A stretch of 64,000 bases of DNA, from the NCBI RefSeq assembly GCF_032884065.1, contig NC_088873.1, positions 29,621,658 to 29,685,657 on the forward strand, written 5' to 3'. Numbering within the stretch: position 1 is the first letter of the stretch; each line of letters opens with the position of its first letter. The notes below the pieces were generated by a model. It was not told the origin of the DNA. It searched no databases and saw only the letters and a program-made list of their open reading frames with translations. Shown here in pieces: positions 431-62,165 of this stretch. The stretch comes from Artemia franciscana. Lineage: Eukaryota > Arthropoda > Branchiopoda > Anostraca > Artemiidae. The position numbers were made by a program, and so were the translations under genes.

Positions 431-645
431 CCAGGCTCAACCAGGTTATGATGTGGGCTATCAGCAAAATAAACACACCATTTATTGCTTTTAAAGTGTA
501 TGTACCAATAATTGTAAATTGGTTGGTAGCTTCCTGGTTTTTCAGTTCTCTGCTTGATAATTCAAAACATTGGATTGTACGTAAAATTGTGGACAAGATT
601 TGGTTATGTAGTCATAATTTTCGATGAACAGTCTTTATAATAATC

Positions 646-1262
646 AAACAGTTCGTGGTAAGGAACTGTAGTAAGGAGCGACCCGTCTCAATAGTAACCA
701 AAACTCTAAAAAATTGAATTTTGATATCAATAGATACATCAAAAGAATCGCATTTTAATGCTGATTTTAAATATATACGTTTCATCAAGTTTAGTCTTAC
801 CCATCAAATGTTACGAGCCTGAGAAAATTTGCCTTATTTAAGAAAATAGGAGGAAACACCCCCTAAAAGTCGTAGGATCTTAACGAAAAGGACCATCAGA
901 TTCAGCGTATCAGAGAACCCTACTGTAGAAGTTTCAAGCTCCTATCTACAAAAATGTGGACTTTTGTATTTTTTGCCAGAAGACAAATCACGGGTGCGTG
1001 TTTATTTGTTTGTTTTTTTTCTTTTTCCCAGGGGTCATCGTATCGACCAAGTGGTCCTAGAATGTCGCAAGAGGGCTCATTCTAACGGAAACGAAAATTT
1101 CTAGTGCCCTTTTTAAGTGACCAAAAATTGGAGGGCATCTAGGCCCCCTCCCACTCTCTTTTTTCCCAAATTCAACGGATCAAAATTTTGAGATAGCCAT
1201 TTTGTTCAACATAGTCGAAAACCATGATAACTATGTCTTTGGGGATGAAATACTCATCCCCA
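646..1262 (+). repeat. Dispersed foldback family, head and body, truncated
   Basis: The copy starts with the family terminus TCAAACAG and the hairpin ACAGTTCG-loop-(C)GAACTGT. It follows the body for about 600 bp through the 'TGCCCTTTTTAAGTGACC...TTGGAGGGCATC' module and stops after 'ACTATGTCTTTGGGGATG'. The second half of the element is missing. It matches the copies at 53027 and 58269 closely by eye. Confidence 0.85.
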
Positions 1263-1599
1263 TCTTTTAAATAAATCTTCTGTCCTGTCCATGAGCTTGC
1301 AAGAACAAGCTGTCTTACAGGCGCGTTTAAGGAACAGAAATTGCCTTAAGACTGATTATACGCATGAACTAACTACACAACAAATGCTCATAATGCAAAT
1401 ACTGGAGTCACAGTAATAATAATAATAATAACAAAACAAAATCAAAACATTCCACCTTACTCCACCACATACCTCAAGCAACCTTTGAAAAAACAAGACA
1501 AGTAATAAATTGAAACTCATATCTAGAATACATTTTTCCCTTAACTTCATTTCTGAATTCTTCTGACCATTTTTTTTTTAATAATTTTGTTATTATATA
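1263..1599. other. No gene seen; short (TAA)n tract
   Basis: A short (TAA)n run lies near 1413-1432 and a (TA)n run near 1597-1603. I see no coding pattern or recognisable repeat in the rest. Confidence 0.5.
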
Positions 1600-1603
1600 T
1601 ATA

Positions 1604-1825
1604 TGCCAGGATGGGATATAGGGTGGCTCGCTCTTTACGCTAAAGTTTGACTCTTTGCCACAATTATGCTTTTTAAAACAATTAAAAGCTTTAGCGTAAA
1701 GAGCGAGGGATTGCAGAGGGGACAAACCATTTCATATACGGAGTAATTTCTGTTCGTTTTAAGTTTTAATGTCGCTCCTTACTTTCAGCTAAAAAAATTA
1801 GTTTTTTTATTTAATTTCTCTAAAG
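1604..1825 (+). repeat. Foldback palindrome of the dispersed family
   Basis: Inverted arms 'CTCGCTCTTTACGCTAAAG' and 'CTTTAGCGTAAAGAGCGAG' flank a ~45-nt loop. The right arm then runs through 'TCGCTCCTTACTTTCAGCT' to a T-rich end. The left arm is shortened. This may be the second part of the copy beginning at 646, separated by about 340 bp of other sequence. Confidence 0.75.
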
Positions 1826-3284: not shown

Positions 3285-31404
<28,120 letters not shown>

Positions 31405-37283: not shown

Positions 37284-38569
37284 TTCATCTCATTAGGAGC
37301 TAAACTAGATAAAAGCTAAATGTATTAACTCTATTCCCCGTAATTAATCTAATAAATCCCAGAAATTACGGTGAATTGTGAAAAAACAGAAATTTGTTTT
37401 GTTGCTTTACACTATAATTCACTTAGATGTTTCTTATTTTTAGACCGCTTTTAAGTTTTCTAACTCGGATGTTTTTTATATTTCGACCACTTTTAAGTTT
37501 TTCCTATTATCCTCATTTGGTGTACCAGATGCCTGAATAAGCGACTAATTTCCTAATAGAGTCAAACCATTCTATGGTTGATTCTACGTTTAAAATCCAA
37601 AAGATATGTACTCTTTCTTGTTTATTATTAATTTTTGATTTTTTTTTTCATGGATTTATTTCAAATGTTATTACACTTCTTTTCCGAAATTCATTGAGTG
37701 AACCCTTGAAACAGTGTGTGACAAAAAACTGCTAGTAAGAAGCGGGTCGTGCTTGTATTACTCGTTTGGCTTGAACAGGGTAAAAATGCTATAGAAGTTA
37801 AATCATGAGAACTGTTAAAAGGATATTATATAGCCTCACAGTCTTGCTGAACTAAATTTTTGGAATAAAAAAGCTAGTGATTGAGATCCCTTGTATTTCC
37901 CTGATCGTATGAGAGATGCGAGAGTGAGTTTTTGTTTTCCAGAGATGTGGATGTATTAAAAGGGCTGCTGTTGAAGGGAATTAATTTAAAAAACTTTTTC
38001 CACAAGACAAGTTTTTTAATGAAAAGTAAAGAGCTCTATTAAGCCAATAATGAGCAAAATTAAATCAAATAATCTTCCAAGCGTAAAACTACCACAAATC
38101 ACTATCAATAAATAAATGAAACTCAAACCGAATAAAAATTACAATAAATAGCCGAGTCAAGCCCAGACCAGCTAAAATGGACATGAGTAGGGCTGATAAC
38201 CCGCTTGCCTTCTCAAGACCAGAACACCATTTGCGCCTTATTAAAAAAAAAAAAAAAATCAACAAACAAATGATTGTGGATTATCAGTTCAATTGACATA
38301 ACATATATTGACATTTGTTCCTTAAGGTTTTGATAATTTTTATTTATGAAAGTAAGAAAGGTGAAAATATATCAAATGTATTTTATTTTCAGTAAAACAC
38401 AAATTGTGTTCTGGTCTTGAAAAGGCATGGGGGTTATCAGCCCTACTCATACTTATTTTTGCTGGTTTGGGTTTGACTCGGCTATTTATTGTAATTTCTT
38501 TTCGTTTTGAATTTCATTTATTTATTAATAGTCATTTGGGGAAGTTTTACGCTTGGAAGATTATTTTAC
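37284..38569. other. Intergenic: nothing recognised
   Basis: AT-rich. A weak foldback-family-like arm ('caagttttttaatgaaaagtaaagag') lies at about 38009-38035. Segments near 38160-38230 and 38400-38475 form a loose inverted pair ('ggctgataacccgcttgcc', 'catgggggttatcagcccta'). Confidence 0.4.
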
Positions 38570-40300
<1,731 letters not shown>

Positions 40301-41412: not shown

Positions 41413-44400
41413 GTACCTTCTAGTGCTTTTAATGTTCCGGCTTCTTGATTCAAAAGAAACGAATCTAGATTTTTCAAGAAAAGAAATATTAAGGTTGAGA
41501 CTATTGCCCCAAAATAAACACAATGGAAAAATAAGCTAAATTTATTTGCTGAGTTTTTTCTGGGTCTCAAGATACTAAAGATTTTCCAAAAGTGTTTCAT
41601 TTGCTTTCTGTTTGCTCTTTTTTTACTATTTATACTTTTAACTATTTTTCCCTTTTTTACTATTTGGAAGACGTTGCTCTCATTAGAAACTCCTTTTGTA
41701 GCATCTTCAGGAATTATTTTCAGGTCCCAATGGATTTAGCAATAAACCATGAATTCGAATCTCATTTGCATGAATAAAGGGGTATTGCAACAAGTATTTC
41801 GGTGTACGCCAGAGTCTGGAGGCATGCAGTCATACCTAAAATTAGATAAAGAATTGGAGGAACAGAGTTAGTAGAAGTAGGGGTAAAACGTTTTTGTTCA
41901 AGCCTGTTGCAGAAGCTGTTTAAATCCTATATAAATTATCGATAAACTGCATATTGATCTTCCTGGTTATGGGGGACGCAAGTCCACGCGATGGCAGATT
42001 CGATCCTAAACGTATATTAAATAAAAAAAAACCTATTTTTTTCATATAAAAGTAAGGAGTAACATAAAAATTTAAAACGTGCAGAAATTATTACGTATAT
42101 GAGGGGTTCGCGCCTCGTAAATACCTCGCTATTTCCTCTAAAGTTAGGAATTTTGTTCCACTTCCTTAAGAATGACCCCTGAATCACAAAGGGTTCAATT
42201 AAAATAAGTAGGTCTTATGAAAGTACTAAAAAGAATCTTACACGAAGAGCATGGTATTAAAGAGGGGGCAACCCCCTCATATACGTAATAATTTCCATTC
42301 GTTTTAAGTTTTAATGTTGCTCCTTACTTTCAGATGAAAAAACTTGTTTTCTTTATTTAAAAAAATAACAACAATTTTTTCAACTTAAACTAAGGAGCAA
42401 CATTAAAACTTAAAACGAACAGAAATTACTATGTATATGAAGGGGGCTTTCGCCTCCTCAACATCTCGCTCTTCACCTTAAAGTTTCTTGGTACTTTAAA
42501 TTATTCTAATTAAACGACCTTCGTGTTTCAGGAATCGTTTTTAAAGAATTGGAACAAAATAAACTTGGATGGGGCAACCTCCCTCATATACGTAATAATT
42601 TCTGTTCGTTTTAAGTTTTAATGTTGCTCCTTACTTACAGTTGAAAAAACTTGTTTTTTAATTTAATTTCTGATCATTGTTCAAATAATACTAGGGTATC
42701 TGGCTTCACCTCCGTGGAAAATCCCCCTCTTCATGGAAATATCCTCCGGAAAATTCAATCCTGCTGAGAATTTACCCTGGAAAATCACCCTTAACGATCT
42801 TCACGCGTAAAATTGAGTTGATAAAGAGAAAGCAAGGGATAAAGAAATTTAGTATGAAAATTCTGGCAAATTCCTCCAGTATAAAGTTTCCACTGAAAAG
42901 TTAACCCCCTGGAAACTTCCTTTTCCTTGGAAAATTTTTCCCGTGCAAAATCCCCCAAGCACAAAATTCACCTTCCCCCCCCCCCGAAAAATTTATGCAT
43001 ACCTCACAATACACTACGTACAAATACATACCATGCGTAAATACTGGGCAAATTTTTAAAATTAGAGACCTTTCCCCAGACGGTGTGGGGGGTCTTGTTA
43101 TCTCCAAAGACATAGTTATTGGGCCTTTCAACTATGCTGAAAAAAAATAGCTATACCAAAATTTTGATCAGACGATTTGGGAAAAAAGTGGCGTCAAGAG
43201 GGAGCCTAGTTGCCCTCCAGTGTATTTGGTCACTTAAAAAGTGCACTAGGAATAGTCATTTCCGTCCGATCTGGCCATCTCCCGACGGGACTCACTGGGT
43301 CAATATGATCCCCCATAGGAAAAAAAATAAACAGGCATCTGTGATCTTTCTTCTGGCAAGAAAAATACAAAATTCCACATTTTTGCAGATAGGATTTTGA
43401 AACCTCTACAATAGGGTTATCTGATACGCCAAATCGGGTGATGGGTTTTTCATTAAGATTCTATGACTTTTAGGGGGTGTTTCCTCCTTTTTTAGAAAAT
43501 ATGGCAAATTTGCTCGGCTAGTAACCTTTGATGCGCAATACTAAAATTAATGAAAATTATATATTTGAAATCAGCATAAAAATTCTTTTCTATTAGTATA
43601 TCTATTCGTATCAAAATTCTGTTTCCTAGTGTTTCGGGTACTATTGAGCCGGGTCGCTTTTTGCTTACAGTTCGTTGCAACGAAATGTTTGACAGATTTA
43701 TAATAAAAAACAGACACAGCAGAATATAATGTTATCATTGCCTTAAACGCTCGAAGCGATAAATCGTCCGCTCTCGCAGAATTTGATTTCAAAAGATTTT
43801 TTTTTATATAAGATAAAGATGAAACAATTTTTTTTTTTCCAACTGAAATGAAGGAGTGACATCAAAACTTGTAACGAATAAGACTTATTCTGTATGTGAG
43901 GTGGGTTACCACTTCCTCAACCCTGGCTGTTTAGGTAAAAGTCTTTTTTCTTTCCCCCTTTTTTTGAAAATAAGGCAAATATTCTCAGGCTCGTAACCTA
44001 TGACCGGTAAGAATGAACCTGGATGAAACTTACTTAATCAACATAAAAATTTGATTCTTTTGATGTATCTGTTTATATCAAAATTCCGTGTTTTAGAGTT
44101 TCAGTTACTACTGAACTGGATCGCTCCTTACTTACACTTCCTTACCACGATCTGACTGAAAGTCATATCATATTACTTTAGTTAGACTAGGCGTGAATAA
44201 AGGCGCAAAGGGGCGATGCCCCTCTTCTTATTGCAAAGACAAATTTTCCGATTTTTTTTTTATTTTCATGTAACCACACTGATTTGGTTCATATTTTGTA
44301 AAATAGTATGCGGTGATGTGTAATGGTGCGTCACCTATTATGGAAAAGGAACAGCGGGTAATTTTTGAGGCGGGGAAAGCTGGATGAAGGCTCAACAAGA

Positions 44401-44980: not shown

Positions 44981-47900
44981 TGTTATTGAAGCTCCTGTTT
45001 TATAGAGTTTTGGTTACGAAGCCGTCTATTTCAGGTGACACACTTCCACAAGACTCAATAATTTTTGATGATTATTCATCTATAGCCGCAAATTTTCAAG
45101 AGATTCCACAAGTCAGTGCGGCTTCGCAAGATATTGATGAAGAAGAAGCATCAAATAGATTATTTTTCAGGCGCCATGGCTATGGATACGGTGGAGGATA
45201 TGGTTATGGAGGAGGTAATTTTAACAGTTTCTGTATGGCCAGCATTACTGATTACTAAAGCCTACCATCTAGCAAAAGTTCATGCCTTAATTTTAGTAAG
45301 AGGAAAATTAGCAAAAGGGTAGAGAACTCATGATCAGTCTAATATCCTGAGGGAAAAAACAAGGAATAAAAATGACAAAAACTAATTACTCATCTTGGCA
45401 TCAAAATTGGCTAATATGTGGTTCAGACTCTATAGCCAGACCTTTCTAAAACAATGTTGATACTAGCCCTGTCTCCAAATAAAGGAGGGAACGGTATATG
45501 CAATCCTAGTATGTTGGGGAAGGCTACTTGCACTTAAAGCAGTACATATGGTATTCAGCTCTTGCCGGTAGATGGTTTATGCTTGTTTATTCAGTGTATA
45601 TTTTGTAGAGACTTCGAGCTACCGTTTTATCGACTTATTTCCATGACAACAAAACTAACAATGGACTCTTATTTTTCCATGAGATTTATTAAAAAAAAAA
45701 AAAGTTTATAAGAGAGAATGCAGTGGCGGTGACTAAGTAATGAGTGATGTGTCATCAGCATATTTCTTTTCAATAATTAGTTTAGTCCATTGAGCTTATC
45801 GTACTAAAGAAATCGTCAAATTTGAAAGTGGTTTCATTTGATCGGAAATTATAAGTTTGGTGGCTAATTAAGGGTTAAATAGGATTGACTGCTACCACTT
45901 CTTTTTCTGTTCCCCCTTTTCGCCCCAGGACACCCTCATAGTCAGTCGTGTATCAGACCAAATTGTTGAAATAACCATTAATATAAAATAATTGTTAAGT
46001 CCATAAAATGTATCTTTACGTGATAAAACCTACACAGATCCAAGAAACGGGGCCCCAAATTATGAAATTGGATCATTCTTCCCGTGTATATTATGGTATG
46101 AAGAGTAGAAATGTCACACCATGTTAAACCTACACTGTGCAACAAATCTGATCTGCATTACTGGAGGTATGGCTATGGCCCACCATCATGCACCCGCCAT
46201 CTACTCCCAGTCCTATACCAGCTTTTAAGGCAGAAGGGATGGTGTTATGCAACCCTCCTGGTGCATACAAACCATCCTGGCTGATATGCACCTTGTTTGA
46301 ATTGTACACGGCCTATGACCCGCTATGACTTGTTCAGTGCAATAACGAATTAAATCTTGACTGGAGGCAAAAACGATTTAGGTCTGCAATATCTAAACCT
46401 TGGTTTGTGAGTGGAGGACTTCAGGTCTCCCAAAGTAATCTTTTAGGAATAGACAAGGAACAGATGCTATTCCAAAAACACCTTAAGCCGTGTATGTCAA
46501 TCAGATCTGGACACTCTTTACGTTTTACTGTGTCCTGAGGTGGAAGATATGTGACTGGAAAGCCAAAATACGACAATAGAGCCTCCAATGTCCACCAGCC
46601 CTCCATTTCTATCAGTAAGGTGCTTGAACTTGACATCATTGAACAAAAACATTATGTTTAAGTTTCACACAAAGGAGACAGAGAGGCAACTCGCTACGTC
46701 TCTTTGAACAAAATTAAATTAAAAAAAACAAGTTTTTTAAATGAAAGTAAGGAGCGACATTAAAATTTAAAACGAACAGAAATTACTCCGTATATGAAAG
46801 GAGCTTTTCCTTCTCAACGCCCCGCTCTTTACGCTAAAGTTTGACTTTTTCTCTTAACTCTACATTTTAAAACAGTAAAAAACTTTAGCGTAAAGAGCGG
46901 GGCGTTGAGAAGGAAAATCCCCTTTCATATACGGAGTAGTTTCTGTTCGTTTTAAGTTTTAATGTCGCTCCTTACTTCTATTTAAAAAACTTGTTTTTTT
47001 TATTTAATTTCTGAACGTTTTTGAATCAATGCATGTTTTGATTTTGGCTCTCCGCAGAGGAATAATTAAAACGAAATTCGTATATTTTTTTTTTGGCTAA
47101 TTGGTTTTCTCATAATTTTGATTGAATGATTTTGAGAAAAAAAGAGCGGGGGAGAAAGCCTAGTTGCCCTCCGAGTTTCGGTTAATTAAAAAGGCAACTA
47201 GAACTTTTAATTTTTTTACGAATCTTTTTATAAGTAAAAGACATACGTAACTTATAAATTAGCTTACGTAAAGAACTTTTGTATTCTCATGTTTTTATTA
47301 CACATATGAGAGGGTTCGCCCCCTCGTCAGTACCTCTCTCTTTACACTAAATCTTAAATTCTGGCCCAATTCATTAAGAATGACCCCTGAATCACAAAAG
47401 CCGCAGAATAAATAGTTGAAATTACCAAAAATACTTTAGCGTAAAGAGCGAGGTATTAGGAGGAGGTGAGCCCCTCATATGGGTAATAATTTCTGTTCGT
47501 TTTAAGTTTTAATGCTGCTGCTTACTTCCAGCTGAAAAAAAACTTTTTCATATTTATTTTTTCATTGTTTTTTTTTAAGTAATGCTAGTAAATCCTGCGC
47601 TCCCTTCATGGAAATTTTCTTCCCCCATGACAAATTCCTCGATGGAAAGCTCCCCCAGCATATCCCCCTCTTCTCAACCCCTGCCTCCAACCAAAAAAAT
47701 CCTCCTGAAAACGCCTGTACACTTCCCAATAACCATTACTATATGTAAGCACTGGTCAAAGTTTTGAACTTGTAACCCCTCCCACGGGGACTGTGGGGGA
47801 GTAAGTCGTCCCCAAAGACATAGTTATAAGGTTTTTCGACTACGCTGAATAAAATGGCTATCTCAGAATATTGATCCGTTGACTTTGGGAAAATAATTAG

Positions 47901-50900
47901 CGTGGGAGGGGGCCTAGGTGCCCTCCAATTTTTTTGGTCACTTAAAAAGGGCACTAGAACTTTTCATTTCCGTTAGAATGAACCCTCCTGCAACATTCTA
48001 GGACAACTTGGCTTAAACGATCGCCCCTGGGAAAAAAAACAACAAAAAAACAAACAAACAAATAAACACGTATCCGTGATCTGCCTTCTGGCAAAAAATA
48101 TAAAATTCCACATTTTTGTAGATAGGAGCTTGAAACTTCTACAGTATGGTTCTCTGATACGCTGAATCTGATGGTGTGATTTTAGTTAAGATTCTATGAC
48201 TTTTACGGGGTGTTTCCGCCTATTTTCTAAAATAACGCAAGTTTTCTCAGGCTCGTAACTTTTGATGGGTAGGCTAAGACTAAACTTGATGAAACTTATA
48301 TTTATATTCAGCATTAAAATGCGATTCTTTTGATGTAGCTATTGGTACCAAAATTCCATTTTTTAGAGTTTTGGTTACTATTGAGCCGGGTCGCTCCTAA
48401 CTACAGTTCGTTACCACGAACTGTTTGAAAAAAGGAAAAAGAAATTATACATCAATAGTTCTCGCGGAGTACGGAGGAAAGCAAAAGGATAAAAAGCAAC
48501 AAAAAACATCGACTCTTGGAGATAGGGATGGGATTTACAAAATAAATTATAAATAAATCAATAATACATTCAATCCCCGCTACTGTCGGCAGAAACGACT
48601 GTCACTTTCAATATCTTTTTATGTGTATTGAGTGATGGTAAATTTCTAACTAAATCAAATAGATTATATTTATTTACAATCTGGGAAAGTTGATATCTTA
48701 AACCAAGTCTTGATCCCTCATTTTTAACAAACAGAAAAATAAACTTATTTCTTGCTTTTGATAAATGGCTATGCTTATTTTCAATGAAAATATTCATGCT
48801 ATTGGAAAAATAATCTATAAGTTTTAAAAATGTTATGCCCAAATTAAGAATAAAAACTTGTTGTGGATCAAGAATAGTAAGAAATAAAAAAGATGTGTTA
48901 GTTTCAAATAATTTTTGTAAGTCAATGTAGGCTTGCTGGAAACTTACTTCACCCAGAATCATGTAGTCATCTGTTATCTGAGGAATTGGAGGAAAAAAGT
49001 GACAATGCATTTCCTACAGCGCAAGCAGCCCCTCAACACCCTCCCTCTTTTCGATATCGCTATAAATTTATAGTAGACAGTTATACATTTGGCAATTTGT
49101 TTAGACCGGGTTCATGCAAAGATGTTCAACCTGCATGATTAGAGGTACAAACTGGGTCTGTGACCCCCTCGACACCCCTGCATCTCTACAAAATCTAGAT
49201 ATGTTCTGAATTGATGTAAATGTGTTGGAGAACCGAGCTGTATAATTTTTGTCACCAGTTGCGAAACAATTTAAGTTCTAACACTTAAAAAGGGGAAGTA
49301 ATTGTGGCTTGAGTCGGGAGTCACCCCATATACAGGGTGGGAATGTTACCCCGTGGTTTGAACAAAATACAAAAGTATTTTCTACCTGTATCATTTAAAT
49401 CCAAAGTAACAGGGGATCGTGGCCCCTGCAACATTCTCCGACTAACCACAGGCTATTTAGCAGTAAGGTAGTCAGTCTTGCAGTACCGTCTTTAAGCGGA
49501 TACCTTGCAAGTATTTCCAATCTGTAAGACTACGAGAAATGTGAGTCAGTGCTTCCTCCAATACCAATAGCCCCTGCAGTGACCCTACCATTACCTTCTG
49601 CAAGGTTTTAATAGAAGTTATGCATTTTGCACAGTGTTTAAAGTTGATTAATACAATGATTCTCAGTACGTATGATTAGAGGCATGAAGTTTGTTCATGG
49701 CCTTTTAAAGCCCCACAAAACAACAAGTTATCCATACCTTAAAACGATGGGATAGGGTGATGATACCTTGTAGAGATTACACTCTTTCTCTAAAATTTGC
49801 AAGAAGTGCTTCGCTGAGAGTTTTAAATCGCTCACCTATTCCACTCAAGCCTGAAACTTACGGAAAAAGAACCTTGGAACAAAGAGAGCTAGAGGATGCA
49901 TTTGAAAGCCTTAAAACTCTTAAAACCCATCTACTTTCTATCTGAAAATAGATGGGACATGAATTATGCTGGGCACAGAGACTCATTAAGGCAGACTCCT
50001 CCCAAGAAATTATAGATTACTAACCACTGGTTTTTGGGTTTAGCTCAGAAGGATTCAAAACTCTTATTTAATTAGAAATACGTTCACAGCTTTACGTACA
50101 AGATGTCGTGCAAATCTTGTGGGAACATAATGGCAACTAGAATACAACTGCTTTTGCATATTTGTAAGAGGTTTACAGATGAATTCAAGTTCTGTTTTGT
50201 TCCTTTTACATAATGTTCTGTCTATCTGTCATGCAATTACGTAATGCCCTCTTTGAAAATATCCGTTCAAGGAGTTTATACCCTCGGAAAATACACCCTC
50301 TCACGGAAAATAGCCCCCAGAAAATACCCCAAAGACAAAATAGCCCCATGCGGAGAATGTCCCCCCCCCCGTAAAAATGCCTCTTCGTGGAAAATACCCC
50401 TGTGGAGTATAATCACCCACAAGGAAATTATTCCCAAAAATTTTCTCCTCACTGCAAATTCCCCCGCGACAGTCCCCCCTTCATAAAAATCCCCAGCGTA
50501 AAAATTATGTATTTTTCCCAACGGGGGGGGGGATACAAAAGAAACTTTAAAGAACGCATCACAATGGGAAATTGATATCGACTCCCTTATGATTTCTGAG
50601 AATATTTCTGGTCTACGCCGTTATGATGAAAGTAAAGAATATCATTAAGCCCAAAAGTGAGCAGAGTTTATCCCATATAGGAGGGGGACCGCACCTTCAT
50701 CCATAGATCCTCCTCATGGTCGCAGAAACTTTGAAGGGTACTCATTAGATCAGAAATTGAGAGTTCTAGTCCTTTTCTTTTAAGTCAAAAGTGATTGGAG
50801 ACATACCGGCCACGAGGGAGGGGGTATTTTCCTACGGGGTATTTTTATAAGGGTGAGGATGTTTCTGTAGGGGGTATTTTATGTGGGAGGGTATTTTTTT

Positions 50901-52698: not shown

Positions 52699-53026
52699 GT
52701 CAGCTAAAGGTGAAATTCTTTAAATTTTGGCGAAAAGCAATTTTATCTAATATAAGCTGTACAAAGCATCATAATAATATCTATTATAAATTGGACCGAT
52801 AAGCCGGAATATATTATGGAAGTTTGGCAGAGAGGTTACAATATCTAGCGCAAGTAAGACCAAGAAGAGGTAATATCCAGTGTAAGTTGGGTTTCCTAGG
52901 GGGAGGGATAGCAGCCCCTGCTGAGTCTATTTGTTGAACAAGCTCATTTGAGAAACTTTTGAAAAATGTGATTTAATTAGACTATACTGGGTACTTTTTT
53001 AATGTCCAACCCCACTCAAGAATTTT

Positions 53027-54722
53027 CAAACAGTTCGTGGTAACGAACTGTATTGAATTTTGATATCAATAGCTACACCAAAAGAATTGCATTTTAATGC
53101 TAATTTTAAATATATAAGTTTCATCAAGTTTAGTCTTACCCATGAAAAGTTACGAGCCTGAGAAAATTTGCCTTATTTAAGAAAATAGGGGGAAACACCC
53201 CCTAAAAGTCATATAATCTTAACGAAAATCACACCATCAGATTCAGCGTATCAGAGAACCCTACTGTAGAAGTTTCAAGCTCCTATCTACAAAAATGTGG
53301 AATTTTGTATTTTTTGCCAGAAGACAAATCACGGTTGCGTGTTTATTTTTTTTTTTTTTTTTTTTCCCAGGGGTCATCGTATCGACCAAGTGGTCCTAGA
53401 ATGTCGCAAGAGGGCTCATTCTAACGGAAATGAAAAGTTCGAGTGCCCTTTTTAAATAACCAAAAAAATTGGAGGGCATCTAGGCCCCCTCCCACGCTCA
53501 TTTTTTCCCAATGTCAACGGATCAAAATTTTGAGATAGCCATTTTGTTCAGCATAGTCGAAAACCATAATAACTATGTATTTGGGGATGATTTACTCCCC
53601 CGAAATCCCTCGGGGAGGGGCTGCAAGTTACAAACTTTGACCAGTGTTTACATATGGTAATGGTTATTGGGAAGTGTACAGACGTTTTCAGGGGGATTTT
53701 ATTTTGTTTGGGGGGCGGGGCTGAGGGGAGGGGAATATGTTGGAGGATATTTCCTTGGAGGAATCTGTCATGGGGGAAAAAAATTCAAGGAAAAGGGCGC
53801 ATGATTTTCTTGCATTACTATAAGAAAACAATGAAAAATAAACATGAAAACGTTTTTTCAAATGAAAGGAAGGAGTAGCATTGAAACTTAAAACGAACAG
53901 AGATTATAACGCATATGAGGGGTTCTAAAAATACTTTAGCATAAAGAGCGAGGTATTTAGGAGGAGATAAATACCTCGCTCTTTATGCTAAAGTATTTTT
54001 AGTAATTTCAACTATTTATTCTACGGCCTTTCTGATTCAGGGGTCATTCTTAAAGAATTGGGACAAAACTTAAGATTTAGTGTGAAGAGCGAGGTATTAA
54101 CGAGGATACAAACCCCCTTGTATACATAATAAAAATATAAGATTATAAAAGTTTGTTACGTAAGTTGCTAATTTATAAGTTACGTATAATTTTTACTAAT
54201 AAAAACGTTCGTTAAAAATTAAAAGTTCTAGTTGCCTTTTTAAGCAACCGAAAAATTGGAGGGCAACTAGGCCTCCTTCTCCACCCCTTATTTCTCAAAA
54301 TCGTCTGATCAAAACTAAGAGAAAGCCATTTAGCCAAAAAAAGAATTAATATACAAATTTCATTTTAATAATTTATGTGCGGAGAGCCAAAACCAAACAT
54401 GCATTAATTCAAAAACGTTCAGAAATTAAATAAAAAAAACTAATTTTTTTTAGCTGAAAGTAAGGAGCGACATTAAAACTTAAAACGAACAGAAATTACT
54501 CCGTATATAAAATGGTTTGTCCCCTCCGCAATCCGTCGCTCTTTACGCTAAAGTTTGATTCTTTGTCACAATTCTACTTTTTGAAACAATTAAAAACTTT
54601 AGCGTAAAGAGCGAGGCATTGCGGAGGGGACAAACCATTTTATATACGGAGTAATTTCTGTTCGTTTTAAGTTCTAATGTCGCTCCTTACTTTCAGCTAA
54701 AAAAATTAGTTTTTTTTTTATT
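53027..54722 (+). repeat. Full-length copy of the dispersed foldback family
   Basis: Starts TCAAACAGTTCG and carries the perfect terminal hairpin ACAGTTCG-TGGTAA-CGAACTGT (53030-53051). About 45 bp are deleted just after it. Both body modules follow. A remarkable perfect 35-bp hairpin lies at 53925-54002, and the terminal palindrome (arms around 'CGCTCTTTACGCTAAAG') occupies about 54455-54700. No coding capacity. Confidence 0.88.
53925..54002. repeat. Perfect 35-bp inverted repeat with 8-nt loop
   Basis: Arms 53925-53959 and 53968-54002 are exact complements (centre 'GAGGTATTTA'-ggaggaga-'TAAATACCTC'). Other copies have only the right arm here, with 'ggggctcacctcc'-like sequence in place of the left arm. 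Confidence 0.95.
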
Positions 54723-55298
54723 TAATAATTTGTAAAATCTGAGAAAAACTGGTTTGTCTATCTGCAGTAGGTTATAATTAGCTTAGTCTTGCTGAGAAGA
54801 AAATGCGATGCAGGTATATTTTTATTAAATATTTAATATATCGAGGTGATTAGGTTACGTATTTAACTTAATCTGGTCTGGGCGGTTTGCTCTCTGTATT
54901 TTTTTCTGTAGTTTCCATAGTTATGATCCTAAAGTGCTGTATTTTCATCATATTTGGTATATTTCATTAGGACTAATCTAACTTCAGTTCTTGGGTGGGG
55001 TCCGGATATTTCACAAATACCCTATATTTCTATAAAGGAACCCCAAACAATCGTGCTCTTGTTTATAAACATATTAGAATGTTTGAAATCTACATTGGTG
55101 AATGACGTCAAATGAAACTAGATTGTTCGGTGAATAACTGTCTCGCATTATGCCTGACGCCTAGAGTTTTTGGACAGGTTATCCAACAATGCCCAAGAGC
55201 AGCCAATCACCTGCACAAAACATTCAGAATACCGCTGCAATTGCCTGGAAAACCCCAAAATAATGTCCATTGTCGTTAGTGAAAATAATTGAAATTGG
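54723..55298. other. Intergenic before the second secreted-protein gene
   Basis: No repeat or gene recognised. Likely holds upstream control sequence of the gene starting at 55377. Confidence 0.4.
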
Positions 55299-55431: not shown

Positions 55432-58400
55432 GTAAGCCTAATGGTTCCTTATTTAAGATACTTAATATTAGAAACCTTTAAATGTAAATTAGTTAACGTT
55501 TTGAAAGAATACCCCCCCCCATTCCTTCCATGTAAGCACAGTTTTCTTCGAAGGAGGACTAGTAGTGATAAAAAGCATTTTACTTGGTAATCTAAATAAT
55601 TAGTCGCCACAAATTCTAGGATTTTTTTTAATCCAGGAGAAGGGCTCGGGTCAGAGGCCCTCCATCTCAGTAAGTGTATCTCACAGTACCCCATCCTTAC
55701 AAAATGTGAAGATTATTTTTTATAAGGGAAAATCATAGCGCTTACAGATTAAACTTTTTGTAAAAAGTCAATGAAATTTTCGCAAAAAGTCAAAAGGGGC
55801 AATTTTCAATCTAATTTTCATAAATTATCTGGAGGTCTGTGCATTGTCTGTTAGGAGATACGTCTTTGATAGCCTAAAATACAATCTTGGCTATGCATCC
55901 TGCGATAGTCCGTGAAGCTGTTTAATAGTTTACATTCAATTTGATTAGCTGATGGATGTCCTTACGGTGATATATGAAAGTACCTTATTCGTGAACTTTA
56001 TAAACTTTCTTAAGAAGCTTACACAAAGATGTTTGGAAATAAGCTATGTCTTGACCTAGATACTTAAAAAAATTCTTTGTTTTATTTTTCTCAAATTGGG
56101 ATTACAACTCGCTGCCTTTGACTCGGTATGACCAATAGATTGCTTTGATCCGCGCATTTGGCTCTGAAGATATTGATTAAGTTTCCTGTTCTTCCAAAAA
56201 CGGTTCAATATTCCATTTTATCACTAGTATAAATAGTAAAATAGTTCAGCATTTGCTTTCCAGCCAGTCAAAGCAATTTTAGCAGTTAAGCCGCAGCTGG
56301 GGACTTTCTTGAAAAGAGTCAATAGTTATATTTTTGTGAAAGCTCCTTAGCCTGGTTCTCAACAGCTAATGCCTTTAACTAACAATCAATCGACCAGTAT
56401 AAACATAAATGCATATGAGTTTGACCAGTGATTGGGAATCAGACACGCATTACCAAAATAAAACTTTAACTTTTCTCAGTAGATTGTGAAATTTGACTAA
56501 GATTCACCAAAATAACTTTCCCCTGTATACTCAGCTATAATCATTAAACTCTCTTTTGGAGAGGGTTAACAGCCTTAAAAAATGTGTTTGGAGAGCTAGC
56601 TGTTTGAAAATACACCCTGGACTGTTCTTTGCGTTAGGAAAACTTCCTGCTCTTTTATGGATGCATGTGGTTCATGGTTCATTCAACTTATCAAAATCAG
56701 GGCCAGATAAAGAACAATTGCACCGGTTGGGCCCAATCAGGCCCCACACTTGAAAAGGCCCCCAAAAAATCAAAATACATTTGTTTTAAGTTTACATTAC
56801 TTTATGAGATTTATTAATATGTTTATTATTATATAGGCCTATATAACATACTTTATAAAATAGAAGACCGATGCATGTAAAATTTCATGTCAAATTTATT
56901 GAAATTATTCGGATAGTCCTAAATTAGGGAGAATTTGCAAAACATACGTGAACTATACGTACGTAAACTATTATGCATACATATTTTATTTAAATATTTA
57001 ACATATAGAAAGGGCCCCTCAATAAAAGATCAAATTAAGCCCCACACCTATTCAATCTGGTCCTAATAAAAAGTTACAACTTTAAAAGAGAGGTGACGAT
57101 GAATTATTACTGGTTTTGTAATTCTAACCAAAATCTTAAAAATTATTATATCCCTTCCAGCTTTTCCTCAAGACGAATTATCTGTGGATGAAGATGCAGA
57201 GAACCGATTCAGATATTGGGGTAAGGTATTTTTCTATATTTTATTGGTATTTTATATATTGGTATTTTATATATTGGTATGTTATCTATATATTTTGTAT
57301 ATTTATATATTTTATTTACATGACTTCGACTCTTTGGTTTTTAATCCGAATTTTCAGATATTATTTCAGAGCACTTCCAAGATCAAACAGATTTTTTAAT
57401 GAAACACTTAAGAAAGGTTCAAGCGATCCCTTTATGTTATTTGGCTGTATTTTTTTTATTATTATTTCGTTAGTTATGTTATTACATTATTTTTACATAA
57501 TCACACTCAAAATTCTGTGTGCATTTTACAATGCTCCTTATGAAAAATGAGAATAAGTCTTCGCCGCTGCTCCTTAAGAAACATATTGTCCAGATCAATA
57601 ATTTTCATATTTCTTTGTGTCTATACTTAAATACAAAAAGTATGAGTCACTCAATACCGAATTAATTAAAAATTACCATGCGTTCGCACTTACCTGCTAA
57701 TAGGTACAAAATAATTTTTCTTTCATTAGTTTCTCGTTTCCTCATATTTTTTCCTTAATTCTTATTCCAATCAATTTCTTCCATTTTAATTCAAGTGTTT
57801 TTCTTCTTCAAGTTCTATTCAAGTACCTAGAACTGATTGCGACATCGGGTGTCATTTATGACAATGTTTACTGAATTAATTTATCACTCTATTTCTACTT
57901 TTGTACATCCTTTTCCAGGTTTATTCAGTGAATTTATAGCTCTGTGCAAAAACAACTTTAAAAATCTAATTTATTTTAGAATCTATGGATCATTTGTCAT
58001 AGATTCATAGAAAAGCAGTACTAAAACAGACATAACTACATATTACACTTAGAACTTCACCCCCGCCCCCTGATGTCCAAGTTTGTACCATGCGGCATAC
58101 GTATTAATTTGATTGGTTTAAATTTCTTTATTCCGTCTAATGGAAATAACTTCATGCGTACACGCATCCCTCAGTGGATGAGCGAGAACTATTTTGGGCT
58201 TGGGTAATCGACCAGGAGTTTTCCAGCAAAAGAATCAAACAGAATCGGCGAATTGGGTAATCGCCGAATCAAACAGTTCGGGGTAACGAACTGTAGTAAG
58301 GAGCAACCCGGCTCAACAGTAACCAAAACTCTAAAAAATGGAATTCTGATACCAATAGCTGCATCAAAAGAACTGCATTTTAATGCTGATTTTAAATATA

Positions 58401-61400
58401 TAAGTTTCATCAAGTTTTGTTTTACCCATCAAAAGTTACGAGCCTGAGAAAATTTGAAAAATAGGGGGAAACATCCCTCAAAATCATAGAATCTTAACGA
58501 AAATAACACTATCAGATTCAGCATATCAGAGAACCCTATTGTAGAAGTTTCAATCTCCTATCTACAAAAATGTGGAATTTTGTAATTTTTGCCAGAAGGC
58601 AGGTCATGGCTGCGTGTTTGTTTGTTTATTTGTTTTTTTTTCCAGGGATGATCGTATCGACCCAGTAGTCCTAGAATCTTGCGAAAGGGCTAATTCTAAC
58701 GGAAATGAAAAGTTATAGTGCCCTTTTTAAGTGAACAAAAATTGGAGGGCACCTAGGCCCCCTCCCACGCTAATTGTTTTCCCAAAGTCAATGGATCAAA
58801 ATTCTGAGATGGCCATTTTATTCAGCGTAGTCGAAAAACCTAATAACTATGTCTTTGGGGACGACTTACTCCCCAACAGTCCCCGTGGGAGGGGCTACAA
58901 GTTACAAACTTTGACCAGTGCTTACATATAGTAATGCTTATTGGGAAGTGTACAGACGTTTTCAGGGGGATTTTTTGGTTGGGGGAGGGGTTGAAAAGAG
59001 GGGGATATGTTGGGGGAACTTTCCATCGAGGAATTTGTCATGGGGGAAGAAAATTTTCATGAAGGGAGCGCAGGATTTTCTAGCATTATTAAAAAAAAAA
59101 CAATGAAAAAATAAATATGAAAAGTTTTTTCAACTGGAAGTGAGGAGTAGCATTAAAACTTAATACGAGCAGAAATTATGACGCATATGAGGGGCTCACT
59201 TCCTTCTAATACCTCTTTCTTTACGCTAAAGTATTTTTAGTAATTTCAACTATTTATTCTACGGCTTTTGTGATTCAGAGATCATTCTTAATGAATTGGG
59301 ACAAAATTTAAGCTTTAGTGTAAAGAGCGAGGTACTGACGAGGGGGTGAACCCCTCGAAAACATGAGATTACAAAAGCTCGTTACGTAAGCTTATTTATA
59401 AGTTACGTTTATCTTTTACTAATAAAAACATTCGTAAAAAATTAAAAGTTCTAGTTTGCTTTTTAAGTAACCAAAAAATGACAACTTGACAACAGGGCAA
59501 CTAGGCTTCCTCCACCGTTCCTTTTTTTCTCAGAATCATTGGATGAAAACTATGAGAAAGCCAGTTAGCCAAAAAAAAAATAATAATCTTGCAAATGCCG
59601 TGTTAATTATTCCTTTGCGGAGAGCCAAAATCAAAACATGCATTGATTCAAAAGCGTTCAGAAATTAAATAAAAAAAACAAGTTTTTTTAGCTGAAAGTA
59701 AGGAGCAACATTAAAACTTAAAACGAACAGAAACGCTGTCAACTCATCAACGCCCCGCTCTTTAAGTTTTCGCTCCTTACGTTTTAAGTTTTAAGTTTTA
59801 ATGTCGCTCCTTACTTTCAGCTAAAAAAAACTTGTTTTTTTTTAATTTAATTTAGGTAAAGCCTACCGCACCTTACTTTCTTAGACTCGAAAAATCGATA
59901 TCTGGCTTAGAACTGGATGCTATAAGTTTGTATATTTGAGGGTAGGTCACTAAAAAGTTCGAATATATCAGCATTTGCCCGTCCTTGTGAGTGGAATTGC
60001 AAGTTTGAAACATAATAGCTAACTATTTATTTGGAAATACTGCACCAGTATGGAACGAGACTTATCAATATACCCCCCCCCCCCTGTATAGCAACTTAAA
60101 CACCATAGCCATCATTCAGGTATTCTTGGGGCACACCTTCTCCCAGAGGTAATTTTTTCAGGACGCTCATCATTTCTTATGTATTTTTTAATCAAAATTT
60201 AAACTTTGGTTTAAGGACATTGGGATAAGGGAGGTTGGGTGTCGTAGCCGTCGGCATCTATCAAACAGTTCGTGGTAACGAACTGTAGTAAGGAGCGACC
60301 CGGCTCAATAGTAACAAAAACTCTAAAAAATTGAATTTTGATATCAATAGCTACATCAAAAGAATCGCATTTTAATGCTGATTTTAAATATATAAGTTTC
60401 ATCAAGTTTTAGTGAACCTTTAATGAAATGAGTTGTCCCCTCCGCAATCCCTCGCTCTTTACGCTAAAGTTTGACTCATTGCCACAATTCTACTTTTTAA
60501 AACAATTAAAAGCTTTAGCGTAAAGAGCGAGGGATTGCGGAGGGGACAACTCATTTCATATACGGAGTAATTTCTGTTCGTTTTAAGTTTTAATGTTGCT
60601 CCTTACTTTCAGCTAAAAAAATTAGTTTTTTTTTATTTAATCTAATTCAACAATGACAATGACATTTAGTGTGGATAAACAATATAAAATTGTAGAAAAA
60701 CAACAGTCAATTTTCCAGTAAAAGAGCAACCCCAGACCCGAAATGAACCGAGAATTTTCTTGTTTATGAGAAGGGATGCTGTTCCTTAAGCCTCTCACAT
60801 TTTATCCTAAAGTCTTAACATGTTCCCAGATATTAAACACTCTCGAAATTGCACAAATCACACTCTTCATCGTAAGTTTTTGGGTCACTCATTCCTTTTA
60901 TTAAAAAAGCTTTTCAGGTACTTAATTAGCAGGTTAAGATATCATTACGATTGTTTTAAGTAGAACCATGCTGTTTACGGATTGTTTTTCTGTTACCATA
61001 GCTTCTATCTCCGTATAGGTATTATAGCTATTATTGTTACCCGTAAGCTTTCTTTGATTAAACTAGATGGGAAAACCGAACTTGGAAGAAACAGGTAGGG
61101 AGATTCGGATGATTGCAGAAAAGTAGAGTTGGAGATTGGGAGCCAAAGGATAAGAAGACCAAGCATAACCCTCGTTACTTATTAAGTCAATTGTTTAGTG
61201 TTTAAAAATTCTTGGTTTCTAAGAAAAAAAACCTGAATATTCACGAGCCCACAACATAGAACAGCAAGTTATTTAAATTACAACTACTACTACTACTAAC
61301 GAATCACTACATCACCTAGTTAACTGAGGCCAACATAGCTACGCACGCTCCTCCTCCATCCCAATCTATTCAAAGCCTCCCTCTTTACACCATCCCAGGA

Positions 61401-62165
61401 AGTTCCCGTTTCTTTTAAATCTTTCTTTATAACATCCTCCCACCGCAGACGAGGGCGATCTGCTTTCTGTCCAGCCCTAGATGGTTGGCCGAAAAGGACA
61501 ATCTTCGGCAATCTGTCATCCTTCATCCGCAGAACGTGCCCTAGCCATCTCAACCTTTCTTTCATTATAACCCTAGAAAGTGGGGTTGAACCACATTTTT
61601 TGTAAAGCCGTCCTGGCTGAGTGGTTGGCGCGCTAGCGTGGGAATTCTTTGTCCAAGGGGCACGGGTTCAATCCCAGTTGTAACCAGTTATTTAGTTTGG
61701 GACGGGGGTCAGTGGCGTGACTCTGTAAGCTCAGCCAGAGTCGACCCAGCTCTAAATGGGTACCTGGAAAAATCTGGGGAAGGTAAGCAGGAAGGGTGTG
61801 TGAAAGCACAGGATGGTTGGTCCCCAACCCCCCTTCCACTTCCTGGCTGAAGGTCCATGAAACGGAGATCAGCACCGCCGGTTTGGACCTTAATGGTTTA
61901 GTGCCGTCTTACTTACTTTACTTACTTACTGTTTGAAATACGATCAGTCAGCCTCCATTGATCTAGTTAAATCTTCATTTATTTAAATTAAATGAATATT
62001 ATATTCTATACTTTAATTTTTATTTATGATAATTCTCCTTTTTTTCTAGGATACAGACCAGGCGGTTATGGTGGCTATGGCGGCTATGGCGGATATGGTG
62101 GCTACCGTCCTTATAGGTATGGTGGATATGGCGGATATGGTGGATATAGGCCATATTACGGATAA
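55377..62165 (+). CDS. Small secreted GGY-repeat protein, 76 residues, 3 exons
   Basis: Exons 55377-55431, 57161-57220 and 62050-62165 join through two phase-1 GT-AG introns. The signal peptide is MLKLALFLALFTIFAAVIA. A short acidic segment FPQDELSVDEDAENRF (20-35) follows. The rest is YW-G-YRP, then GGY repeats broken by YRPYRY and YRP and ending RPYYG. There are no cysteines. The mature part resembles YGGYG-type antimicrobial or cuticle peptides known from nematodes and arthropods; that is analogy, not identification. It parallels the 113-residue gene upstream in exon plan, pro-region and 5' UTR motif, so the two probably arose by duplication. No canonical AATAAA is seen in the first 150 nt after the stop. 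Confidence 0.8.
55432..56697 (+). other. Intron 1 of the 76-residue gene, first part: nothing recognised
   Basis: No element or coding fragment recognised. Confidence 0.4.
56698..57065. mobile_element. hAT-like MITE in intron 1 of the 76-residue gene
   Basis: CAGGGCCAGAT at 56698 faces the complement of TAGGACCAGAT ending at 57065. The flanks ATCAAAAT and ATAAAAAG match at 6 of 8 positions. The interior carries 'ttgggcccaatcaggcccc' and 'agggcccctc...aagccccacacc'. Non-coding, 368 bp, and it ends 95 bp before exon 2. Confidence 0.5.
57161..57220 (+). CDS. GGY-repeat protein (76 aa), exon 2: acidic segment
   Basis: Acceptor 'ccttccag|ctttt', donor 'ttggg|gtaagg'. Encodes Ala19 to the first base of Gly39: FPQDELSVDEDAENRFRYW. 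Confidence 0.8.
57221..58268 (+). other. Intron 2 of the 76-residue gene, first part
   Basis: A short 'attttatatattggt' repetition lies at 57238-57290. Nothing else recognised. Confidence 0.4.
58269..59850 (+). repeat. Near-full copy of the dispersed foldback family
   Basis: Hairpin terminus with one mismatch (ACAGTTCG-gggtaa-CGAACTGT), both body modules, a second-palindrome region at 59105-59360 and a collapsed terminal palindrome at 59690-59835 from which most of the inner arms are lost. Intron 2 of the 76-residue gene. Confidence 0.85.
59851..60262 (+). other. Between two foldback copies: nothing recognised
   Basis: A C-run lies at 60071-60084. No gene or repeat. Confidence 0.4.
60263..60640 (+). 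repeat. Foldback family copy with the whole body deleted
   Basis: The first ~150 bp (hairpin terminus to 'atcaagttttagt') is joined directly to the terminal palindrome. The inner arms, 60423-60469 and 60513-60559, are exact 47-bp complements around a 43-nt loop. It is the shortest copy retaining both ends. Confidence 0.88.
60641..61263 (+). other. Intron sequence: nothing recognised
   Basis: No element or coding fragment recognised. Confidence 0.4.
61264..61565 (-). mobile_element. LINE ORF2 C-terminus and (TAG)n tail
   Basis: The open frame 61565 to 61320 encodes ERLRWLGHVLRMKDDRLPK, RPRLRWEDVIKKDLKE and VKREALNRLGWRRSVRSY, the usual C-terminal end of endonuclease/reverse-transcriptase non-LTR proteins (the WLGHVLRM block). 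After the stop codon a (TAG)n tail lies at 61281-61299. The piece is 5'-truncated but its 81-codon frame is open, so it is younger than the other LINE scraps here. Its 3' end matches the fragment at 9237-9353. Confidence 0.85.
61607..61931 (+). mobile_element. tRNA-derived SINE with (TTAC)n tail
   Basis: The 5' part is tRNA-like with RNA polymerase III promoter boxes: A box TGGCTGAGTGG at 61614-61624 and B box GGTTCAATCC at 61665-61674. The Ser/Leu-like A box suggests a class II tRNA ancestor. A ~230-bp unrelated body follows ('cagctctaaatgggtacctgg', 'accgccggtttggacctt') and the element ends in TTAC repeats (61909-61931). It inserted about 40 bp from the LINE fragment. It is a retroposon, not a working tRNA gene, because the tRNA fold is incomplete. 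Confidence 0.9.
62050..62165 (+). CDS. GGY-repeat protein (76 aa), exon 3: GGY repeats
   Basis: Acceptor 'tttttctag|gataca'. Encodes YRPGGYGGYGGYGGYGGYRP, YRYGGYGGYGGYRPYYG and TAA. The repeated 'ggctatggcgg(c/a)tatgg' DNA makes length variation by slippage likely. Confidence 0.85.

Follow-up and report, generated by a model that had tools for sequence, protein, structure and literature searches.

The window, i.e. the whole 64-kb stretch of Artemia franciscana DNA analysed here, has a G+C content of 34.8% and holds exons of a phosphoglucomutase gene identified by Pfam. No open reading frame of at least 150 aa from a start codon is present in the window. It contains 89 stop-to-stop frames of at least 75 aa; eight of them were searched in Pfam, of which four matched phosphoglucomutase and four gave no match. 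An Rfam search of the window at gathering scores returned 0 matches. An open frame of 115 aa at 61320-61667 on the minus strand has no match in Pfam; judged by eye, we take it to resemble the end of a LINE protein. The window further includes a tandem array at 24191-25779 (period 283, 5.5 copies, 78% matches) and a large inverted repeat at 38067-38566, the 186-bp arms of which are 86.6% alike and which is unmatched by copies A and H of the element described below.

Anatomy of the element and its copies

Self-comparison of the window and alignment of seven copies delimit a non-coding element of ~1.7 kb (Table 1). From 5′ to 3′ it consists of a TC start, a hairpin with an 8-bp stem, a body, an internal palindrome, a second body piece and a terminal palindrome of ~300 bp that runs into the 3′ end TTTAA(T). 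Copies A, B and C are full-length, and so is G, but its terminal palindrome has collapsed. F and H are shortened, E is an older copy with two palindromes in tandem, and D is a palindrome alone. The 13-mer in the head of copy H occurs unchanged in F, with one change in B, C and G and with more changes in E, and it is deleted in A. A broken element head on the minus strand, beginning at 27216, passes into a 196-bp (AT)n array (26944-27216), and at 38582-40294 a 230-bp tandem pair lies together with four stretches whose likeness to the part of the element body near 53367-53633 is 68-73%.

Table 1 Copies of the element in the window and their parts
Feature	Position	Strand	Remarks
Copy A, full-length	53026-54726	+	head, body, internal palindrome M, body 2, terminal palindrome
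Copy A, terminal palindrome	54425-54726	+	loop oriented as in H
Copy A, new hairpin inside internal palindrome M	53925-54002	+	35-bp perfect stem; 42 bp recopied as reverse complement
Copy B, full-length	14779-16489	-	terminal palindrome 14779-15069; internal palindrome K 15365-15612
Copy C, full-length	46708-48428	-	terminal palindrome 46708-47010; internal palindrome L 47295-47572
Copy D, old terminal palindrome	23001-23285	-	without full element; loop as in B and C
Copy E, old	42015-43692	-	tandem palindromes at 3′ end: E2 42363-42672, E1 42015-42362
Copy F	644-1815	+	middle rearranged; left palindrome arm a 19-bp remnant at 1627
Copy G	58269-59853	+	internal palindrome Q 59109-59370; collapsed terminal palindrome 59662-59853
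Copy H, short	60261-60641	+	5′ head and terminal palindrome; without body and outer left arm
Copy H, inner palindrome	60423-60559	+	47-bp exact arms, 43-bp loop
5′ terminal short hairpin (copy H)	60266-60285	+	CAGTTCGTGGTAACGAACTG; adjoins TC start
13-mer in head of copy H	60287-60299	+	AGTAAGGAGCGAC; inverted repeat, 12 of 13, at 60595-60607 within the 3′ palindrome

Arm matching among the copies of the window

In the inner palindrome of copy H the arms 60423-60472 and 60510-60559 reach a complementarity of 98% over 50 nt and differ at 0 of 47 positions in their exact part, as a preliminary description of this DNA had reported for the copy at 60263. As DNA the palindrome strand folds at -62.6 kcal/mol, and none of 200 shuffles folded as low. 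It had also been claimed that other copies carry a different sequence in the same place and that the opposite arm then changes to match. The first part does not stand for CCTCCGCAATCC, which is copy H's own motif and nearly identical in the copies at 54455 and 1604. The second part stands insofar as left and right arms are sisters in all five terminal copies, but the match is imperfect outside H, with differences at 3 of 94 places in A, 5 of 93 in B, 4 of 93 in C and 15 of 90 in the old copy D.

These results come from 13 palindromes cut out of the window. Five terminal palindromes (A, B, C, D and H) formed the main test, from which the rearranged G and F with its lost left arm had been left out; a separate comparison took in K, L, Q, E1, E2 and R, and a pooled test covered 11 palindromes. 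Over the inner arms of the five terminal palindromes, identity is 92.6% within copies, 79.4% between left arms and 82.3% between right arms, and the true pairing of arms is the best of all 120. In the pooled test the within-copy value for the inner arm is 77.4% vs 70.1 and 67.6% between copies, which 0 of 20,000 permutations reached. Summed over the ten copy pairs, which are not independent of each other, 69 column comparisons differ on both sides and 65 of these are concordant, while one-sided differences number 47 for the left and 41 for the right; twelve arm columns are concordant in every copy. A tree of 16 arms joins the left and right arm of each of the five terminal copies tested as sisters, with bootstrap values from 54% (D) to 90% (H), and for the terminal palindromes a tree splitting left from right arms is rejected (AU test, p 1.6e-4 and 9.8e-5). 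The arms of the old palindrome E1 are 76% alike. Arm divergence increases with copy age among the window copies, the numbers of which are too few to part ongoing conversion from drift.

Arm matching across the genome

The A. franciscana assembly (1,270,528,402 bases in 6468 contigs) was searched with two palindrome queries, and 40 places out of 1792 and 40 out of 6682 first-look candidates were scored. Sixty genomic stretches were taken, which together with the window contain 165 arm pairs, some of them overlapping. The terminal span is represented by 78 arm pairs; 72 of these could be oriented by the body and 70 have two good arms. Copies H and F could not be oriented and are absent from the set of 70. 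Because the loci were picked by similarity to two window palindromes, the sample is biased.

Aligning left and right arms separately over genomic copies, as the preliminary description had proposed, revealed an excess of identity within copies: 0.919 on average, against 0.882 for left-left, 0.876 for right-right and 0.877 for left-right comparisons between copies, with 0 of 10,000 permutations as high. The claim that arms are more alike within than between copies thus holds for the 70 genome copies (91.9% vs 87.6-88.2%) as for the five of the window (92.6% vs 79-82%). Within the first 92 columns the excess recurs in the A/H subset (22 copies; 0.970 vs 0.958 and 0.959), in the B/C clade (nine copies; 0.951 vs 0.897 and 0.894) and among the other 39 copies (0.905 vs 0.892 and 0.874), each time with 0 of 10,000 permutations as high. 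The effect is therefore more than a difference between subfamilies.

The nearest same-side arm elsewhere is on average 0.950 alike in the 70 copies, and the partner within the copy equals or exceeds it in closeness in only 7 of 70 cases for left arms and 13 of 70 for right arms. Since an arm is usually more distant from its own partner than from a same-side arm elsewhere, the matching appears to arise mainly in source lineages that spread. The co-variation "copy by copy" that had been proposed is accordingly real as an excess within copies, but it does not as a rule extend to the individual copy, in which the partner is seldom the closest arm and private changes mostly affect one arm (see below).

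The internal palindrome lacks the matching

The internal palindrome of the same elements serves as a control and is without within-copy matching. In the window, K, L and Q have a within-copy identity of 66.8% vs 94.1% and 92.8% between copies, 0 of 163 column comparisons are concordant, and pairing of left with right arm is rejected for each of the three (p 1e-5 to 8e-4). Over the inner half of the 33 internal palindromes that were oriented, of 46, the within-copy value is 67.3% vs 74.6% and 85.4% between copies, and 6983 of 10,000 permutations were as high. With a likeness of about 67%, the arms of the internal palindrome have moved much further apart, and divergence alone could stop conversion. 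Matching is kept in the terminal palindrome only, perhaps because that is the working terminus folded during transposition and the internal palindrome a former terminus, or perhaps because its arms stayed alike enough to convert.

The left arm of the internal palindrome of copy A bears a scar, i.e. a 42-bp stretch recopied in reverse complement that now forms a hairpin with a perfect stem of 35 bp. Judged by their span, corresponding arm pairs are present in 23 of 61 sequences; a source element therefore probably carried the scar hairpin.

Inversion of the loop

The loop of ~43 bp has opposite orientations in copies A, H and F and in copies B, C and D, one being the reverse complement of the other (alignment scores of 18-23 in reverse and at most 3 in forward orientation). 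Among the 72 oriented terminal copies, the loop points one way in 53 and the other way in 19. On a tree built from the second body piece of 63 copies, loop orientation changes five times, three to five times in bootstraps, and at least two changes are forced by well-supported branches. Our best estimate is that the terminal loop was inverted three to five times, and at least twice. The internal loops all have one direction in the 33 oriented copies (33 of 33). Outside these 33, the loop of E2 in the window is inverted relative to E1, K, L, M and Q; together with the scar within the internal palindrome this means that copying was not confined to the terminus. Among the footprints of template switching, within-hairpin matching is thus present in the terminal and absent in the internal palindrome, and both loop inversion and a new perfect stem were found.

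Divergence of the arms and distribution of variants

Between copies A and B, divergence amounts to 24.7% in the inner arms, 14.4% in the whole arms and 13.0% in the body; between B and C the values are 12.6%, 8.6% and 9.0%. The inner arms diverge faster than the body and the whole arms about equally, and still they are paired, so that pairing was kept without slowing substitution.

Private changes in the A/H subset affect both arms in two cases and one arm in 39; in the other 48 copies the numbers are 10 and 59. As private changes are mainly one-armed, matching of the arms seems to take place from time to time in source lineages, with copies drifting after insertion. For shared variants in the A/H subset (22 copies), 13 carriers have the variant on both arms and 22 on one, which differs from the private changes (p 0.00048); in the other 48 copies the counts are 105 and 326, and the contrast with private changes is weak (p 0.089). 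Counted per variant, 4 of 11 in the A/H subset are mostly on both arms and 7 of 11 mostly on one, and in the other 48 copies 9 of 96 and 87 of 96, respectively. A one-arm variant at column 79 is common to seven A/H copies, although a recurrent C to T change could mimic such sharing.

Element ends and insertion sites

In 39 copies with both ends, two of which share one head, the last two places before AAACAG are T in 97% and C in 92%, giving the 5′ end TC; the base before it is A in 67% and T in 23%. The 3′ end is TTTAA(T) and not the CTRR of Helitrons. The 3′ boundary was fixed by requiring one of six hexamers, for which 61 of the 72 oriented copies qualified. A per-copy search for target duplications in seven copies gave no clear case (H being the best, p 0.05), and a column-by-column test in 39 copies, which relied on the motif-defined 3′ boundary, detected none either (the highest z over thousands of offsets was 3.2). 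The 3′ flanks of these 61 copies are T-rich with little G at the start (3% at +1) and A- and G-rich from +8 to +12; this bias reflects either a preference for certain targets or an error in placing the 3′ end.

Discussion

To judge from its ends, the element is probably a rolling-circle, Helitron-like transposon. It shares with Helitrons, as defined in PMC4067079 and PMC4778049, the 5′ TC start and the 3′ hairpin; its mostly-A 5′ flank and the lack of a detected target duplication may fit the insertion of Helitrons between A and T. It differs from them in ending with TTTAA(T) instead of CTRR, in being non-coding and in its palindrome of ~300 bp as compared with 16-20 bp. The authors of the A. 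franciscana genome put its share of Helitrons at 8.81% (PMC11492255). Likeness to the Helentron/HINE/DINE-1 group, as characterised in PMC4067079, lies in a 13-bp subterminal inverted repeat (11-15 bp for HINEs), palindromes at both ends, the lack of a detected target duplication and the many copies; the palindrome of our element is however far longer, and its 5′ flank is mostly A where theirs is T (T-T insertion). In Galileo/Foldback elements, long inverted repeats are 98-100% alike within a copy and 79.5% on average over all copies, for which the authors propose recombination and conversion (PMC3573991). Those repeats form both ends of the element, whereas here the whole palindrome lies at the 3′ end and the 5′ end is unrelated save for the 13-mer. 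The element does not fit Galileo/Foldback, as the palindrome is wholly 3′-terminal and there are no long inverted repeats at both ends. Nor does it fit a MITE, given ends unrelated except for the 13-mer and no target duplication found in the sets of 7 and 39 copies. Literature naming Artemia yielded no description of the element, which is no proof of absence. Searches for relatives gave 0 matches for each of three patterns in viral contigs and 0 matches for a 24-mer in genome contigs; matches of a 17-mer in 13 bacterial contigs were taken as chance and not used.

We think it rather likely that the palindrome is the 3′-terminal region of a high-copy, non-coding, probably Helitron-like element of A. 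franciscana, and that in spreading lineages intramolecular copying occasionally makes its two arms alike again. The palindrome would fold, or a polymerase would switch template between the arms; one arm would be rewritten from the other and the loop sometimes turned round. Such homogenisation would be occasional and happen in lineages that keep copying themselves, and the copying may take place in a folded state during propagation, with the palindrome acting as a terminus or terminator used in transposition. Within-copy matching, loop flipping and the scar are all explained together by arm-to-arm copying in spreading lineages, whether through template switching or through repair of a folded intermediate. 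Loop inversions and the recopied stretch fit arm-to-arm template switching or conversion with the footprints described for RNA hairpins, where a single event is predicted to yield several compensatory changes at once, to invert the loop and to create new perfect stems; that work covers RNA genes with short stems, in which compensatory changes combined with loop inversion were extremely rare (PMC8794818). Structure more conserved than sequence is likewise reported for maintained inverted repeats of Caenorhabditis, which are not copies of a mobile element but lie between genes, belong to gene pairs and were compared across species (PMC1803023).

The preliminary description had offered arm-to-arm conversion or hairpin templating on the one hand and selection for a foldback structure on the other. 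The loop inversions, the internal scar and the fast divergence of arms that stay paired speak more for the former. If only well-paired terminal hairpins could transpose, independent arm mutations would be kept only when compensating, and pairing would be retained in the terminal and not in the internal palindrome, as observed. In the Helitron Helraiser the 3′ hairpin is the terminator, and about 90% of activity is left after exchange of the stem sequence (PMC4778049), which would let stem letters drift so long as they stay paired. The need for two mutations should however slow the arms, which change as fast as the body and in their inner part faster, and the loop inversions and the recopied stretch require a copying event. 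Nor do mismatch types give a clear sign of RNA pairing. G.U exceeds A.C by 201 to 144 among all mismatches of the 70 terminal copies, as RNA pairing favours, but shared mismatches are counted repeatedly here and a G.U excess is likewise present in the internal arms (194 to 102), which are not homogenised; among private mismatches there is no significant G.U bias (15 to 8 and 2 to 7), and the five window copies have 9 to 11. We regard such selection as unlikely, though as the most serious rival. Plain chromosomal gene conversion or inversion between the near-identical arms of resident copies, independent of transposition, seems to us somewhat less likely again. Arm-to-arm conversion has been discussed for long inverted repeats (PMC1803023), and in a separate count over the 70 copies nine private changes matched on both arms vs 61 on one arm, where ~0.05 would be expected by chance. 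Private changes are nevertheless mainly unmatched in both sets of copies, and old copies such as D and E1 have drifted apart.

Two further readings tie the copying more closely to transposition. Parvovirus ends are copied through hairpins, and the palindrome could in the same way be remade from one arm at each transposition, matching being reset every jump. Younger copies indeed match well and the loop flips. Such a reset predicts that the partner arm is closer, but the nearest same-side arm usually is, and one-arm variants common to several copies, such as that at column 79, point in the same direction, although recurrent C to T changes could mimic the latter; for these reasons the reset at each jump is disfavoured and appears very improbable. 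The terminal palindrome might instead be rewritten and flipped during transposition, though not at every jump, through a folded single-stranded intermediate in which one arm templates the other, giving a eukaryotic rolling-circle element a self-correcting hairpin that works like the flip-flop hairpin of parvovirus telomeres, with a former, internal terminus left to decay; this stronger version of homogenisation in spreading lineages we hold to be improbable, to much the same degree as conversion in resident copies.

Compensatory change is usually taken as proof of a selected structure. As a terminal and an internal palindrome are carried by the same elements, for which first-look candidates run to thousands in a single genome, arm copying and selection can be distinguished here. 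Concerted evolution of inverted repeats is already known, and the flipping terminal palindrome with its internal control is the unusual part. If homogenisation is tied to transposition, a folded intermediate would be recorded in an abundant element for which we found no description in the literature. In copy E, the two palindromes in tandem, one of them with an inverted loop, may stem from read-through past an older terminus.
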